37,206 nt of DNA from an uncultured Verrucomicrobiota bacterium. GTDB lineage: Bacteria; Verrucomicrobiota; Verrucomicrobiia; Opitutales; Opitutaceae. The translations under genes were made by a program, and so were the position numbers. Numbering within the stretch: the first letter of the stretch is position 1; every line of letters starts with the position of its first letter. A model generated the notes under the pieces. That model was given only the letters and a program-made list of their open reading frames with translations. It was not told where the DNA came from and searched no databases. Location of the stretch: positions 1 through 37,206 of the forward strand of contig CAJXQX010000037.1 in assembly GCA_913058185.1 (NCBI GenBank), written 5' to 3'. Below, piece by piece: positions 4,451-33,177 of this stretch.

Positions 4451-5125
4451 ATGATCGATGGTGTTCGTCTCAAATTCTGCGGACTGACTTCGTTGGTAGA
4501 CGCCAACTTTGCGGATGCGTTGGGAGCGGATTACCTCGGCTTTATTCTGTATCCGAAGTCACCACGCGGCTTGTCGGTTCGGGACTTTGAAAACCTGAAA
4601 CCGAACCTGCCTAGGGGGCGAAAATTGGTGGCGGTGATGGTTGAGCCAAGTGATGTCGAATTGATCGCGGCGAAAGAGTCAGGGTTCGATCGATTTCAGA
4701 TTCATTTCTCTACCGAATTCCCGATCGAGCGTATCGAAGGAATAAGTAAACAAGTAGGCCGAGATCGGCTTTGGCTGGTCCCGAAACGGCACCCGGAATC
4801 GCCCATGGATGAGCGTTGGTTGAAATGGGCCGAGACGATTCTCGTAGATACGTTTTCCGCGAATGAATTTGGTGGTTCAGGCAAGACCGGAAATTGGTCC
4901 GAGTTTGCCCGGCTCCAATCCGACCATCCCACTACGAAGTGGATATTGGCCGGAGGCTTGAATCCGGAAAATATAGGCGATGCCCTGACCCAATCGGGTG
5001 CGCGGCTTGTCGATGTGAACAGTGGCGTCGAAATTGCTCCCGGCATTAAAGACCACGCCAAGATGAAGGCGGTGGTTTTGGGTATCCACAAACAACGCAC
5101 GTCGTCAACAAACGCCCATGAGTGA
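4451..5125 (+). CDS. trpF: Phosphoribosylanthranilate isomerase
   Basis: This 224-residue (beta/alpha)8-barrel enzyme converts N-(5'-phosphoribosyl)anthranilate to CdRP in tryptophan synthesis. The catalytic Cys lies in LKFCGLT (Cys10), and the general-acid Asp in ILVDTFS, followed by the GGSGKTGNW phosphate loop. WILAGGLNPENIGDAL and LVDVNSGVE are the C-terminal phosphate-binding strands. Family members usually have a Q-[LV]-H-G motif in the middle; here it reads QIHFSTE, a small deviation. It starts 3 bases after the DegT gene and its 3' end overlaps the transporter by 8 bases. No other trp gene is present in this window. Length is normal. Confidence 0.93.
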   Translation: MIDGVRLKFCGLTSLVDANFADALGADYLGFILYPKSPRGLSVRDFENLKPNLPRGRKLVAVMVEPSDVELIAAKESGFDRFQIHFSTEFPIERIEGISKQVGRDRLWLVPKRHPESPMDERWLKWAETILVDTFSANEFGGSGKTGNWSEFARLQSDHPTTKWILAGGLNPENIGDALTQSGARLVDVNSGVEIAPGIKDHAKMKAVVLGIHKQRTSSTNAHE

Positions 5126-13858: not shown

Positions 13859-15061
13859 ATGTCCAGCCCTTGGCTCAAACAAAAGTTCACCGACTTTGAA
13901 CAATTCGCCATCGATGTCGTTTATGGACGTCGAGACGACTTGCCGGCGGTGATTTTTGCCGGGTTTCTACAGGCGCTGTCGTATCTCTTTACCGGAATCG
14001 TTAAGCTACGTTGGCTGCTTTATCGCAACCGCGTGTTGCACGACCAACATCTCGGTTGCCTCGTCGTGGTGGTCGGAAATCTGACGGTGGGTGGGACTGG
14101 CAAAACTCCGGTGGTGGAAAAGTTTGCCCGAGCACTGCGTGATCAAGGTCGTCGCGTCGCCATTCTCAGTCGTGGCTATAAGAGTAAAGCGCCCCCCATG
14201 TGGAAGAAATGGTGGTATTGGCTCTCTCACACGGCTGAGCCTCCGCCCCGAATCGTTTCCAATGGCGAAGAGGTGCTGCTCGATAGTGAACAGGCCGGAG
14301 ACGAACCTTACATGTTGGCCCGAAACCTTCCGGGAGTCATGGTGCTCGTGGACAAAAATCGCGTAAAAGCCGGAGCTTACGCGATCAAGCAGTTCGGTTG
14401 CGACACGCTGATCTTGGATGATGGCTTCCAATACTTGCCGCTTAAGGGCCGCCTCAATCTGCTTCTGGTCGATAAAACCAACCCCTTTGGGAACGGATTT
14501 CTGTTACCTCGCGGGATTTTGCGTGAGCCCATCTCCCATCTCAAACGCGCCAGTTACGTTTTCCTGACCAAAAGCAACGGCGAGCGGGACGTGGAACTGG
14601 AGGATCTGATCCAACAGCACAATCCGGGAGTCGACGTGATCGAATGCTCTCACCAGCCCCAGTATCTCCAAAAGCTCGGCGAGCCGCCTGAGACTGCGGA
14701 AACACGTCTACCACTCGAGTTTCTCGAGGGGAAACGAGTCGGAGCATTTAGCGGTATCGCGACGCCGGAGAGTTTTGAAAAATTCATCCGCGATCTCGGT
14801 GCTGACATCACCTTCGCTCGACGGTTTTTGGATCACTACCGCTTTGAACCCGCTGATTTTGTCGATATCTTCAGCGCGGGATTGGAGCACAAGGTCGACA
14901 TGATCGTGACGACGGAAAAGGACGCCGTTCGGATCGATTCCGACCTGCCATGTCCGGTTCCGATCTATTACCTACGGCTGGAAATCGCCATAATCAGTGG
15001 CGAAGACGATTTTGATGCCGCGGTGGCGCGGCTGTGTTTTGACGAAATGCGCCCGCGATAA
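13859..15061 (+). CDS. lpxK: Tetraacyldisaccharide 4'-kinase
   Basis: LpxK phosphorylates the 4' position of the lipid A disaccharide at the inner membrane, so the organism should make lipid A. The 400-residue protein has a hydrophobic N-terminal segment (about 28-50), a P-loop [13 protein letters not shown] at 73-84, [27 protein letters not shown], the conserved LILDDGFQY, and [18 protein letters not shown]-terminal features include [13 protein letters not shown] and [10 protein letters not shown] 20-odd residue Trp-rich insertion (KKWWYWLS) follows the RGYK motif. No other lpx gene is nearby, so regulation and substrate supply come from elsewhere. Confidence 0.95.
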
Positions 15062-15143
15062 GCGGCAGGGGAATAGGATCAAGTCGTGACTAAATTGCGG
15101 TCGCAATGCGTCTACGACCCGACCCCGGCGGGCCGCTGGCTCG

Positions 15144-15314
15144 TTTCTTGTTACTTGATACCTGTACCTGCTACTTGAAACTTCACGCGGAACGCGTGCG
15201 GAGTGCCTCAGAAAGTCCGATTGTGGCTCTTGTTACTTGATACCTGCTACTTGTTACTTCTGCGCAGCAGTTTGATACTTGGAACTTGATCCTTGGAACT
15301 TCGCGCGATGCGCG
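15144..15314. repeat. Composite repeat array: ACTTG-type tandem words ending in GC palindromes
   Basis: Three units occupy most of the lpxK-aminopeptidase gap. Each has runs of words such as CTTGTTACTTGATACCTG or GATACTTGGAACTTG, ends in (G/A)AACTTC or TTACTTC, and continues into a GC-rich palindrome. The palindromes are CACGCG-GAA-CGCGTG (15184-15198), CTGCGCAG (15260-15267) and CGCGC-GAT-GCGCG (15302-15314). The words are conserved while the palindromes differ in sequence, suggesting that pairing is kept rather than letters. The region lies just before the aminopeptidase start at 15328 and would be in its leader. I know of no named family to assign it to. Confidence 0.75.
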
Positions 15315-15327
15315 CTTTAGCTTCGCC

Positions 15328-16461
15328 ATGCTAATTGATCCCCGATTCCACGACTTGGCCAAAGGCCTCATTGGATTCTCCACCAAGCTCAGCCGCGGTG
15401 AGAAGGTATTAATCGACGCCTATGACGTGCCAGACGCGATCGTCGTGGCTCTCGTTCGTGTGGCCCGCGCTCGGGGAGCGACTCCCTACGTAAACATCAA
15501 TCACGCGCGAGTCAGTCGTGAGCTACTCGTCCACAGCAAGTCTGGTGATTACGACGCTCATTCCGGAGTCGAGTTGAAGCGGATGCAGGGGATGGACGCT
15601 TACATCGCGCTGCGTGGGTCCGATAATATTTTTGAGAATTCGGACGTTCCCGCCAAACAGGTTCAGCACATGGCGAAGTCCATGAAACCCGTGCTCAACT
15701 ATCGGGTGAACAAGACCAAGTGGGTGGTGTTACGTTGGCCGACGACTGCGATGGCTCAACAAGCTGCCATGAGCACGGAAGCGTTTGAAGATTTTTATTT
15801 CCGCGTCTGCACCCTCGATTATTCCCGCATGATTCCCGGCATGCGTGCGCTGCAAAAACTGATGGAAAAGACCGATCAGGTGCACATCAAAGGCCCTGGC
15901 ACGGATCTCACTTTCTCTATCAAGGGAATCGGCGCGTGCCCTTGTGGCGGCGATCGGAATATTCCGGATGGCGAAGTTTTTTCCTGTCCGGTGAAAGACA
16001 GCGTTGAAGGCGTGCTGCAATACAACGCCCCGACGGTTTATCTCGGATCATCATTTGATAATATCCGCCTCGAATTCAGCCAAGGTAAAGTAGTGAAAGC
16101 GACGGCGGATTCACCAAAATCGACCAAGCGACTCAACGCCATCCTCGATAGCGATCCGGGCGCCCGTTACATCGGCGAGTTCGCACTCGGCTTCAATCCC
16201 CACATCCTCGAGCCCATGCGCGACATTCTCTTCGATGAGAAGATCGCGGGTTCGTTTCACTTCACCCCCGGGCAAGCCTACGCCGAATACAGCAACGGCA
16301 ATAACTCGCAGGTTCACTGGGACATGGTATGCATCCAGCGTCCCGAATACGGCGGCGGTGAAATCTACTTCGATGGAAAACTCGTGCGTAAGAATGGGCT
16401 CTTCGTGCCGAAGTCTCTCGAAAAACTGAATCCGAAATACTTGCTCGGAAAAGCGAAGTAA
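15328..16461 (+). CDS. M29-family metallo-aminopeptidase
   Basis: This 377-residue protein belongs to the AmpS/AmpT/PepS group of two-metal aminopeptidases that trim N-terminal residues from peptides in the cytoplasm. Family features are the start [18 protein letters not shown], the region around [13 protein letters not shown] with a likely metal-binding Glu, [10 protein letters not shown] with the second Glu, a His in [10 protein letters not shown] and the HWDMV segment near the C-terminus that supplies His and Asp ligands. I chose the ATG at 15328; the longer ORF from 15286 would begin inside the repeat array. The adenosine deaminase gene follows after 22 bases, so the two are likely cotranscribed. 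Confidence 0.92.
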
Positions 16462-22745: not shown

Positions 22746-24467
22746 TCAGATGAGGTATTTGTCGGTCACCGCACCTTCGGAAGCGCTGGAGACTAAACGG
22801 GCGTATTTGGCCAGCACTCCACGGGTTTCGTTAGGAGGAGGGGGCGTGTAGGCGGCCATGCGGCTGCTGAATTCCTCATCGGGGATAAGTAGGCTAATCG
22901 TATTCTTAACCGCATCGATCTCGATTTGGTCACCGGTTTTGACGATACCGATAGGGCCACTATTGGCGGCTTCCGGGGTAATGTGCCCCACGTCGAAACC
23001 ATGGCTGCCACCGGAGAAGCGGCCATCGGTGATGAGGGCGACGTCTTTGATGAGGCCACGGCCCGCGACCGCACTGGTGGGTGAGAGCATTTCGCGCATG
23101 CCGGGTCCACCGACCGGGCCTTCGTTGCGAATGACGACCACATCGCCCTTCACCACGTCGCCGCGGAGGATGCCTTGGAGGGCTTCTTCTTCGCTTTCGT
23201 AGACCTTGGCCGTGCCTTTGAAATAAACACCTTCTTTGCCGGTGATCTTACCGATCGCGCCACCGGGAGCGAGATTGCCGTGCAGCACCCGCAGATGGGT
23301 CTCGGTTTTAATGGGATCATCCCAAGGACGGATAATATCCTGTTCGGTTGGGTAGGCACCGTAGGGTTCAACGTCGGCCAGTGATTCCGCCATGGTTTTG
23401 CCGGAGACCGTGAGGCAGTCACCGTGGAGCATGCCGCGATCGAGGAGCATTTTCATCATCGGGCGAATACCGCCGATGCGGATGAGGTGGCTCATATTGT
23501 ATTTACCAAAGGGCTTCAGATCCCCGAGCAGAGGCACCCGAGCACCGATCTCCTTGAAGTCCGCGAGCGAAAGCGGGACGTCGGCCGAGTGAGCGATGGC
23601 GAGCAGGTGAAGAATGAGATTCGTCGAGCCACCAAGCGCCATACATACCGTGATGGAATTCTCGAAGGCCTTGCGCGTCATGATGTCGCGAGGTTTCAGG
23701 TCTTCCTCGAGCATCCGCATGACGGCGGCGCCGGCGCGTTCGCAGTCGCGGCGTTTCTCTTCGCCGATGGCGAGCTGGGCACTGCTGTTAGGTAGACTCA
23801 TGCCGAGCGCTTCAATCGCACTGGCCATGGTGTTAGCGGTATACATGCCGCCGCAGGAGCCGGGGCCGGGGATGGCGCACTCTTCGACTTCCTTTAGCCC
23901 GGCATCATCGAGTTCGCCTTTGGCATGCTTACCAACGGCCTCGAAGACCGATACGATATCGAGCGCATTTTTCTTATCCGGGTCGGATGGCGTGAAGCCG
24001 GGAAGGATGGTGCCGCCATAGATGAAGACGGCGGGACGGTTGAGGCGAGCGATGGCGATCATCGCGCCAGGCATGTTTTTGTCGCAGCCACCAATGGCGA
24101 CCAGACCATCAAAACCCTCGGCAGCGGTGGCTGTTTCGATCGAATCGGCGATTACCTCCCGGGAAACAAGGCTGTAGCGCATGCCTTGGGTGCCCATACT
24201 GATGCCGTCAGTTACGGTGATGGTATTAAAATAGATCGGTTTTCCGCCGGCCTCGGCGATGCCTTTACGAGCGTGGTCGCTGAGATCGCCCAAGTGAACG
24301 TTACACGGGGTCATGTCGCTGGCGGAGGACGCCACGGCGATTTGCGGTTTGGTGAAATCCTCGTCGGTGAAACCGACTGCACGGAGCATGGAGCGCGCGG
24401 GGGCGCGGTCGTTTCCATCTACGACGATGGAAGAATGGGGGCGATTGGAGACGGAATCAGAGCTCAT
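22746..24467 (-). CDS. ilvD: Dihydroxy-acid dehydratase
   Basis: IlvD dehydrates 2,3-dihydroxy acids to 2-oxo acids in valine, isoleucine and pantothenate precursor synthesis; it is a cytoplasmic iron-sulfur enzyme. From the ATG at 24467 the protein has 573 residues. Likely cluster ligands are the Cys in MTPCNVHL, in GGCDKNMPG (whose Lys is usually carbamylated and binds Mg) and in PGSCGGMYTANTM. DGISMGTQGMRYSLVSRE, GGSTNLILHLLAIA and RFSGGSHGFDVGHITPEA are also typical. The longer ORF from 24509 would add 14 residues before MSSDSVSNRP. It is divergent from scpB with 102 bases between the starts. Confidence 0.96.
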   Translation of the reverse strand: MSSDSVSNRPHSSIVVDGNDRAPARSMLRAVGFTDEDFTKPQIAVASSASDMTPCNVHLGDLSDHARKGIAEAGGKPIYFNTITVTDGISMGTQGMRYSLVSREVIADSIETATAAEGFDGLVAIGGCDKNMPGAMIAIARLNRPAVFIYGGTILPGFTPSDPDKKNALDIVSVFEAVGKHAKGELDDAGLKEVEECAIPGPGSCGGMYTANTMASAIEALGMSLPNSSAQLAIGEEKRRDCERAGAAVMRMLEEDLKPRDIMTRKAFENSITVCMALGGSTNLILHLLAIAHSADVPLSLADFKEIGARVPLLGDLKPFGKYNMSHLIRIGGIRPMMKMLLDRGMLHGDCLTVSGKTMAESLADVEPYGAYPTEQDIIRPWDDPIKTETHLRVLHGNLAPGGAIGKITGKEGVYFKGTAKVYESEEEALQGILRGDVVKGDVVVIRNEGPVGGPGMREMLSPTSAVAGRGLIKDVALITDGRFSGGSHGFDVGHITPEAANSGPIGIVKTGDQIEIDAVKNTISLLIPDEEFSSRMAAYTPPPPNETRGVLAKYARLVSSASEGAVTDKYLI

Positions 24468-33100: not shown

Positions 33101-33177
33101 GCACCCATAGCTCAACTGGATAGAGCGTCTGACTACGAATCAGGAGGTTAGGGGTTCGACTCCCTTTGGGTGTACCA
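33101..33177 (+). tRNA. tRNA-Arg (anticodon ACG)
   Basis: The 77-nt sequence folds as a full cloverleaf. The acceptor stem GCACCCA pairs with TGGGTGT (G1-U72 wobble), then A73 and an encoded CCA. The D arm is AGCTC...GAGC. The anticodon stem TCTGA/TCAGG frames loop CTACGAA with ACG at 33135-33137. The T arm GGGGTTCGACTCCC is intact. ACG, read as ICG after deamination by TadA, decodes CGU, CGC and CGA. Confidence 0.97.

Follow-up and report, generated by a model that had tools for sequence, protein, structure and literature searches.

A short, dispersed, non-coding repeat is present, by a modest balance of probability, in three nested copies in the 266-base gap between lpxK and an M29 aminopeptidase gene. 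It consists of (CTTGNNA)n ending in ACTT and a hairpin that follows, would spread non-autonomously and would have its hairpin made or renewed by template switching. The DNA analysed, hereafter the window, is a stretch of 37,206 nucleotides on contig C37 of the draft genome (4.09 Mb, 159 contigs) of an uncultured member of the Opitutaceae; by its aminopeptidase, the nearest named loci are records from this family.

Three heptamer arrays upstream of the aminopeptidase gene

The gap contains, in this order, a decayed inverted-repeat element and three degenerate heptamer arrays (positions 15147-15315; CTTGNNA, last word ACTTC), and a different small palindrome stands directly after each array (Table 1). 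The three word units of the original prediction, each ending in ACTTC and passing at once into a palindrome of different sequence, were borne out by direct reading, the second hairpin being weak. The repeat finder returned the array words as direct repeats and reported no inverted pair of at least 12 in 14800-15700, because the window palindromes are too short for it. Folded as single-stranded DNA, hairpins 1, 2 and 3 reached -6.8, -2.5 and -6.1 kcal/mol, and 5, 7 and 47 of 200 shuffles, respectively, folded as well. With 47 such shuffles hairpin 3 alone is therefore not exceptional, and the case against chance is made by the genome-wide pattern count and the array-edge hairpins. The genes downstream of the arrays encode the M29 aminopeptidase, an adenosine deaminase family protein and a pseudouridine synthase, as had been claimed, and lpxK lies upstream. 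At Rfam gathering thresholds the only match in the window was to tRNA (a tRNA gene at 33101-33174).

Table 1. Features of the window between lpxK and the aminopeptidase gene
Feature	Coordinates	Strand	Basis and remarks
lpxK	13859..15061	+	Upstream of arrays; Pfam LpxK, E 6.5e-81
Decayed inverted-repeat element, TIR type	15068..15126	.	GGGGAATAGGATCAAGTCG ... CTACGACCCGACCCC
Heptamer array 1, last word ACTTC	15147..15184	+	Direct reading and repeat finder
Hairpin 1, CACGCG-GAA-CGCGTG	15184..15198	+	ssDNA fold
Heptamer array 2, last word ACTTC	15229..15260	+	Direct reading
Hairpin 2, CTGC-GCA-GCAG, weak	15260..15270	+	ssDNA fold
Heptamer array 3, last word ACTTC	15272..15302	+	Holds CCTTG where relatives have the promoter's CCTTG
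Putative -35, TTGGAA, in last words of array 3	15293..15298	+	Place and 17-nt spacing as in six relatives with no array here
Hairpin 3, CGCGC-GAT-GCGCG	15302..15315	+	Within putative promoter spacer; ssDNA fold
Putative -10, TTTAGC	15316..15321	+	GATAGG, GATAGC or GATACG in relatives
M29 aminopeptidase gene, ATG at 15328	15328..16461	+	Pfam Peptidase_M29, E 3.1e-46; orthologous N-termini

The promoter region of the aminopeptidase gene was compared across the genus. The six relatives without an array at the promoter point have the form TTGC(C/G)(A/G)-17 nt-GATA(G/C)(G/C). The window genome (G000) has TTGGAA-17 nt-TTTAGC, with a spacer made up of the end of ACTTC and the palindrome. CCTTG lies 40 bases from the ATG in G000, G002, G004 and G007 and 42 bases from it in G001, G003 and G006; this length is kept, and the last unit therefore overwrote the promoter region and did not lengthen it. 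As judged from these alignments, the array 3 unit replaced the -35 region and the spacer, and it probably now forms the aminopeptidase promoter. Nearly the same last unit is present at this point in G005, whose promoter region was read by eye and did not fit the CCTTG motif used for the others. In G004 a short array precedes a promoter of the usual form, and no arrays were found in the orthologous upstream regions of G001, G002, G003, G006 and G007. The predicted tie of the arrays to the leader of the aminopeptidase operon appears to be coincidental, even though the promoter region there was rebuilt by the last unit.

A dispersed family with a hairpin at one edge

The pattern ACTTGNNACTTGNNAC gave 66 matches in G000 against 0 for the reversed pattern. 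It was matched 44 and 47 times in the sister species G004 and G005 and 0-5 times in the other five genus members (genome completeness is 82% for G004 and 69% for G006). A genome-wide search for similar arrays had been set beforehand as the step on which the claim of an undescribed dispersed repeat could fail. Arrays were found, and the recurrence of the array-plus-palindrome unit throughout the genome and in the sister species supports the claim. Among the 51 arrays read first, ACTTG made up 99 of the 114 inner words, and 40 of the 51 closed with ACTTC. The spacer dinucleotides were AT (53), TT (50), GA (30) and others (32) among 165; the search pattern itself fixes some word positions, and this two-position variation is partly built in.

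Sixty-five arrays of G000 were examined for hairpins. A run was counted if it had at least two full words behind a leading CTTG or CCTG. Most of the 65 arrays were taken from stretches selected for the pattern, so that proportions are meaningful and densities are not; six other 20-kb contig starts held one array. Hairpins were scored as base pairs minus twice the mismatches and had to start at most 3 bases from the last base of the array. A score of at least 5 was reached at the ACTTC edge of 39 arrays and at the opposite edge of 3, and a score of at least 6 at 31 and 2 of the 65, respectively. Scores of at least 6 were obtained at 0.7% of 1000 background places and in 1.2% of 510 shuffles. 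The 39 array-edge hairpins comprised 37 distinct sequences, with at most one A/T in the arms of 20 and two or more in those of 19. No hairpin of score 5 was found at 26 of the 65 arrays or at 15 of 24 in G005. In this sister species a score of 6 was reached at the capped edge of 9 of the 24 arrays and at the other edge of 1 (20 stretches picked from its matches; for G005 and the distant genomes discussed below, arrays within 62 bases of a stretch end were left out). An inverted-repeat motif lay within 160 nt on the far side of 25 of the 65 arrays and on the hairpin side of 2.

Nearly all of the arrays differ from one another (62 of 65). The position of words in the arrays is not random, as 0 of 2000 shuffles reach the observed value, and the arrays therefore partly share descent. 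A single master array copied everywhere was also considered. Neighbouring words were near random (185 of 2000 shuffles; with all dinucleotide classes, 356 of 1000), which together with the 62 differing arrays means that one master alone is not the explanation.

Eleven array-bearing gene ends (contigs C60, C66 and C106) were then followed across the genus. Of 10 orthologs in G005, 7 had the array, and of 21 in the more distant members G001, G002, G003 and G007, none did. In one gene (L148, 7248-8877), the 5' hairpin arm encodes PYKAVWLK, which is native coding sequence with the counterpart PYKHVWL in four orthologs and PYKHVSL in G003. The 3' arm is an exact 22-bp inverted copy of this native arm and is joined to the array; both the hairpin and the array are absent from all five relatives compared. 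At a second gene, a hairpin is retained in both sister species, which share its native arm but not its loop, and at a third the array is common to both sister species and the hairpins differ. In gene 2 of C60 both hairpin arms are new relative to the relatives, and in metH both differ from them, so not every hairpin has a native arm; the 20 hairpins with at most one A/T in their arms point the same way. Neither duplication of a target nor a clean empty site could be shown inside one species. Between these species the intergenic DNA has diverged too far.

These comparisons are consistent with the following course. The element would spread in the genome as a non-autonomous unit, and its copies would survive mainly where extra DNA is tolerated, that is just after stop codons, in flexible protein linkers and in DNA close to promoters. 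A template switch in the DNA at the capped edge would copy the flank in inverse orientation, or would later re-match the arms, and the outcome would be self-complementary hairpin ends that are specific to each locus. Template switching is proposed because it can yield a hairpin on one side only, with an inner arm copied in inverse orientation from the adjacent DNA. It is described as a one-step source of perfect inverted copies that also re-matches existing stems (PMC8794818); the available text of that source draws no link to tandem arrays. Several points speak against a dispersed repeat of this kind: no enzyme was tied to the array at the 30 Y1 loci described below, the native arm is not general, 26 of the 65 arrays have no hairpin of score 5, the arrays partly share descent, and neither a target duplication nor a clean empty site was shown.

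Gene ends, the companion element and known repeats

The position of the arrays relative to genes was determined with a small, purpose-written, hexamer-based gene caller that was checked against the Pfam hits of the window only. Among the 37 intergenic arrays between tandem genes, the capped edge faced the stop of the upstream gene in 29 and the start of the downstream gene in 8 (two-sided binomial p 0.0008), and 17 of the 29 upstream-facing array ends lay within 25 nt of the gene end. Of the remaining arrays, 6 were located between convergent genes, 7 between divergent genes and 15 in genes or at contig ends. Where the capped edge faces the stop, the order in the sense of the gene is coding sequence, hairpin and (G)AAGT(NNCAAGT)n. 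The stop codon itself falls in the hairpin loop, in a hairpin arm or in the array, and a score-6 hairpin straddled the stop in 11 of the 31 genes with an array near it.

This arrangement brings up a tentative reading, which we hold to be unlikely, in which the unit is a candidate functional mRNA 3' end. The stop-overlapping hairpin would act as a transcription terminator or exonuclease barrier and the array as a downstream protein or Rho binding tract, and selection would keep the structure while the sequence drifts. Besides the orientation of the capped edges and the hairpins across stops, it is favoured by the sister species, both of which retain hairpins of changed sequence at some gene ends, and by array-free genes, in which scores of at least 8 were found at 4.8% of 250 stops and at 1.4% of 281 internal places. 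At score 6 there is, however, little difference between array-free genes and background (16% and 12%), and the same genes have no array in all 21 of the more distant orthologs. Further, the window copy lies before a start codon and other copies lie in frame in dnaE1, dnaE2 and metH. The T run of an intrinsic terminator was not found either, as the 39 array-adjoining hairpins are followed in gene sense by the AAGTNN... array (judged from array position, not by T-run scoring). Termination of transcription may be one role of the unit, in which case the hairpin would form the 3' end structure of an mRNA. It explains neither the copies in frame nor the array that stands where a T run would be expected, and so falls short as a full account. 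Pre-existing terminators were tried separately as the origin of the hairpins, which did not hold for the genes with known array-free orthologs: a score of at least 6 near the stop was found at 7 of the 11 G000 ends compared with just 1 of the 21 array-free orthologs of G001, G002, G003 and G007. The three array-free G005 orthologs had hairpins near the stop with scores of 6, 6 and 5 and unrelated stems.

The element that precedes the arrays in the window is of a known kind. Nineteen own-genome similarity rows start on it (query 662-684), and its other copies keep the intact arms GGGGTCAGGTCGT...ACGACCTGACCCC. The motif GGGGWSAS is described for the TIRs of TIRYT Y1 transposases (PMC3733652); the intact companion arms GGGGTCAG and GGGGTCAC fit it, and similar arms flank some Y1 genes, as in the TIRYT elements treated in that source. 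At 5 of 30 Y1 loci, arms like those of the companion element face each other across the gene, about 1 kb apart; of these loci two (L132 and L138) have arms, GGGTCAG, that fit the motif and three (L125, L131 and L137) have GGGTCAT, which misses its last letter. The match concerns the companion at 15068-15126, whose left arm is decayed, and not the array. A possible arm of another TIR element, GGGGTCATGTCG, was noted at window position 24307.

Y1 family matches occur in all eight genus genomes (68 in total), and REPs are reported to be abundant in Opitutus terrae, which is rich in GTAG REPs and has the highest number of them inside genes (PMC3733652). This raises the question whether a Y1 (RAYT) transposase moves the array unit as a kind of REP in which ACTT takes the place of GTAG as the fixed tetranucleotide at the hairpin foot. 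GTAG- and CGTC-tagged REPs are likewise small dispersed stem-loops that lie near or over gene ends, supply stop codons and occur in genes including dnaE2, as far as that source describes them. The REP palindrome is, however, family-specific and carries a GTAG or CGTC tag, whereas the palindrome of the array unit is locus-specific, with 37 sequences among 39 hairpins, and its constant part is the heptamer array with the foot ACTT(C) (40 of 51 last words). In addition, no ACTTG array (two words in register) was present at any of the 30 Y1 loci fetched from the 68 matches, three of them from G000, so that an array flanking its own Y1 transposase gene was not seen. A REP-like origin therefore seems quite unlikely.

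The TAACTGA heptamer repeats of Beggiatoaceae resemble the arrays in that they form short sets of heptamers between genes, contain stops in every frame and in some cases overlap gene ends (PMC4679880). Unlike the arrays, they repeat a single heptamer exactly and mostly stand directly before start codons, and the available text of that source mentions no hairpin cap. The words of the arrays described here vary in their spacer dinucleotides (AT, TT, GA and others among the 165), and their capped edges face upstream stops more often than downstream starts (29 against 8). In the literature on heptamer and palindromic repeats (Verrucomicrobia, Opitutaceae and general), no description that we recognised as the array and hairpin unit was present among the matches listed.

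In-frame copies and other genera

Two composites in dnaE2, one array in dnaE1 and one in metH are inserted in frame (genes named by NCBIfam; the dnaE1 piece is partial and the metH piece lacks the first third of the model). The first dnaE2 site is empty in G001 and partly common to G004. The linker of dnaE1 contains CAAGTNN words in G000, G004 and G005, AAATCNN words in G003, and in G002 (L237) the different heptamer AATCCGA behind an 8-bp hairpin; no clear array was found there in G001, G006 and G007. By exact pattern AATCCGA is rare, with 11 matches in 6 of the 8 genus genomes. The metH site, compared in G000, G001, G002 and G004-G007, has ACTTG-type words in G000 and G005 and more loosely in G001 and G002, CATTGGN words instead in G004 (L241), and no array words in G006 and G007. 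Hexamer arrays of GAGAAA/GAGAAC also lie near heptamer arrays of G000 (L142 from about 1985, L145 at about 4608-4645), including inside dnaE2. In-frame insertion in conserved genes is shared with the Rickettsia palindromic elements (PMC10969869). Those families, of about 150 bp, encode a conserved peptide according to that source, whereas the palindrome of the array unit is not conserved and its hairpins differ from one array to the next.

Outside the genus, the genome G012, from another genus of the family, contains GTTCAGN arrays in the same order of native sequence, hairpin and array. A hairpin score of at least 5 was reached at the outer edge of 8 of 15 of these arrays and at the inner edge of 0 of 15, with a background of 5.2% of 1000 places, and 5 of the 15 had a mirrored array nearby (strict pattern). 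Duplicates from overlapping stretches, arrays close to the end of a stretch and the loci of G008 and G010 were left out of this count. Heptamer arrays without hairpins were found across the phylum. The pattern occurs in 96 of 387 phylum-wide, which is not evidence of the same element because the distant arrays lack the hairpin cap: in nine distant phylum genomes with countable arrays of ACTTG words, scores of 5 and 6 at the capped edge were obtained for 1 and 0 of 32 arrays, respectively, and a tenth (G163) had no countable array. The reversed pattern is rich in other genomes because other heptamers occur there, so it is not a neutral control outside G000. On the genomes examined, the presence of the cap in G012 and its absence from the nine distant genomes make it look like a trait of the Opitutaceae.

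Paired arrays were seen in several of these genomes. In G012, inverted pairs of heptamer arrays surround a short linker in stretches called as genes (L213 7557-7643, L208 6262-6362, L212 8770-8858); some have outer-end hairpins and several word families are represented, among them CAGAGGC with the recurring linker GACTTCGGCTACGACAACTGCTGGC. A second word family of G000, GAGTAGN, forms an inverted array pair between two genes (L065 17817-17911) and also single arrays near gene boundaries. In the distant phylum genomes G141 and G152 (L366, L367, L374), inverted ACTTGCG array pairs lie about 30 nt apart and have no caps.

Period 7 was the commonest short period in the stretches of both G000 (23 arrays in 392 kb, mostly chosen for arrays) and G012 (27 in 200 kb, half so chosen), with 0 arrays in shuffles at this period. 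Together with the hairpin-free heptamer arrays across the phylum, this agrees with ordinary short tandem repeats that arose by replication slippage and were later mutated, with neither function nor mobility. Slippage does not, however, put a hairpin at one edge only, and arrays that end in ACTTC in 40 of 51 cases while their inner words are ACTTG in 99 of 114 are not expected from it, so we regard this origin as very unlikely. A long shot is a lineage-specific process that would write heptamers onto fold-back DNA ends, in which broken or stalled strands would snap back, forming the hairpin of one native and one copied arm, and 7-nt words of variable sequence would be added by a hypothetical enzyme from a short template, internal or of RNA, comparable to the addition of degenerate repeats by telomerase. 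Species-specific templates (CAAGTNN, GTTCAGN, AATCCGA, CATTGGN) would explain the word swaps at the same site. The original prediction raised binding sites; as sites for a regulator of the aminopeptidase operon, the words are scarcely credible from the sequences compared: in the window they overlap the putative promoter, but the arrays mostly face gene 3' ends genome-wide, some lie within coding sequence, and the orthologous upstream regions of five relatives contain none.

The preferred explanation remains a dispersed repeat that would spread non-autonomously and have its hairpin made or renewed by template switching. Its constant part is a degenerate seven-base array and its palindrome varies by site, which is the reverse of REPs. 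In conserved proteins the arrays make C-termini and linkers longer and change their shape, and at a promoter they can remodel the region. As they also turn over between sister species, they provide a natural series for testing how DNA hairpins originate and whether short word arrays are mobile.
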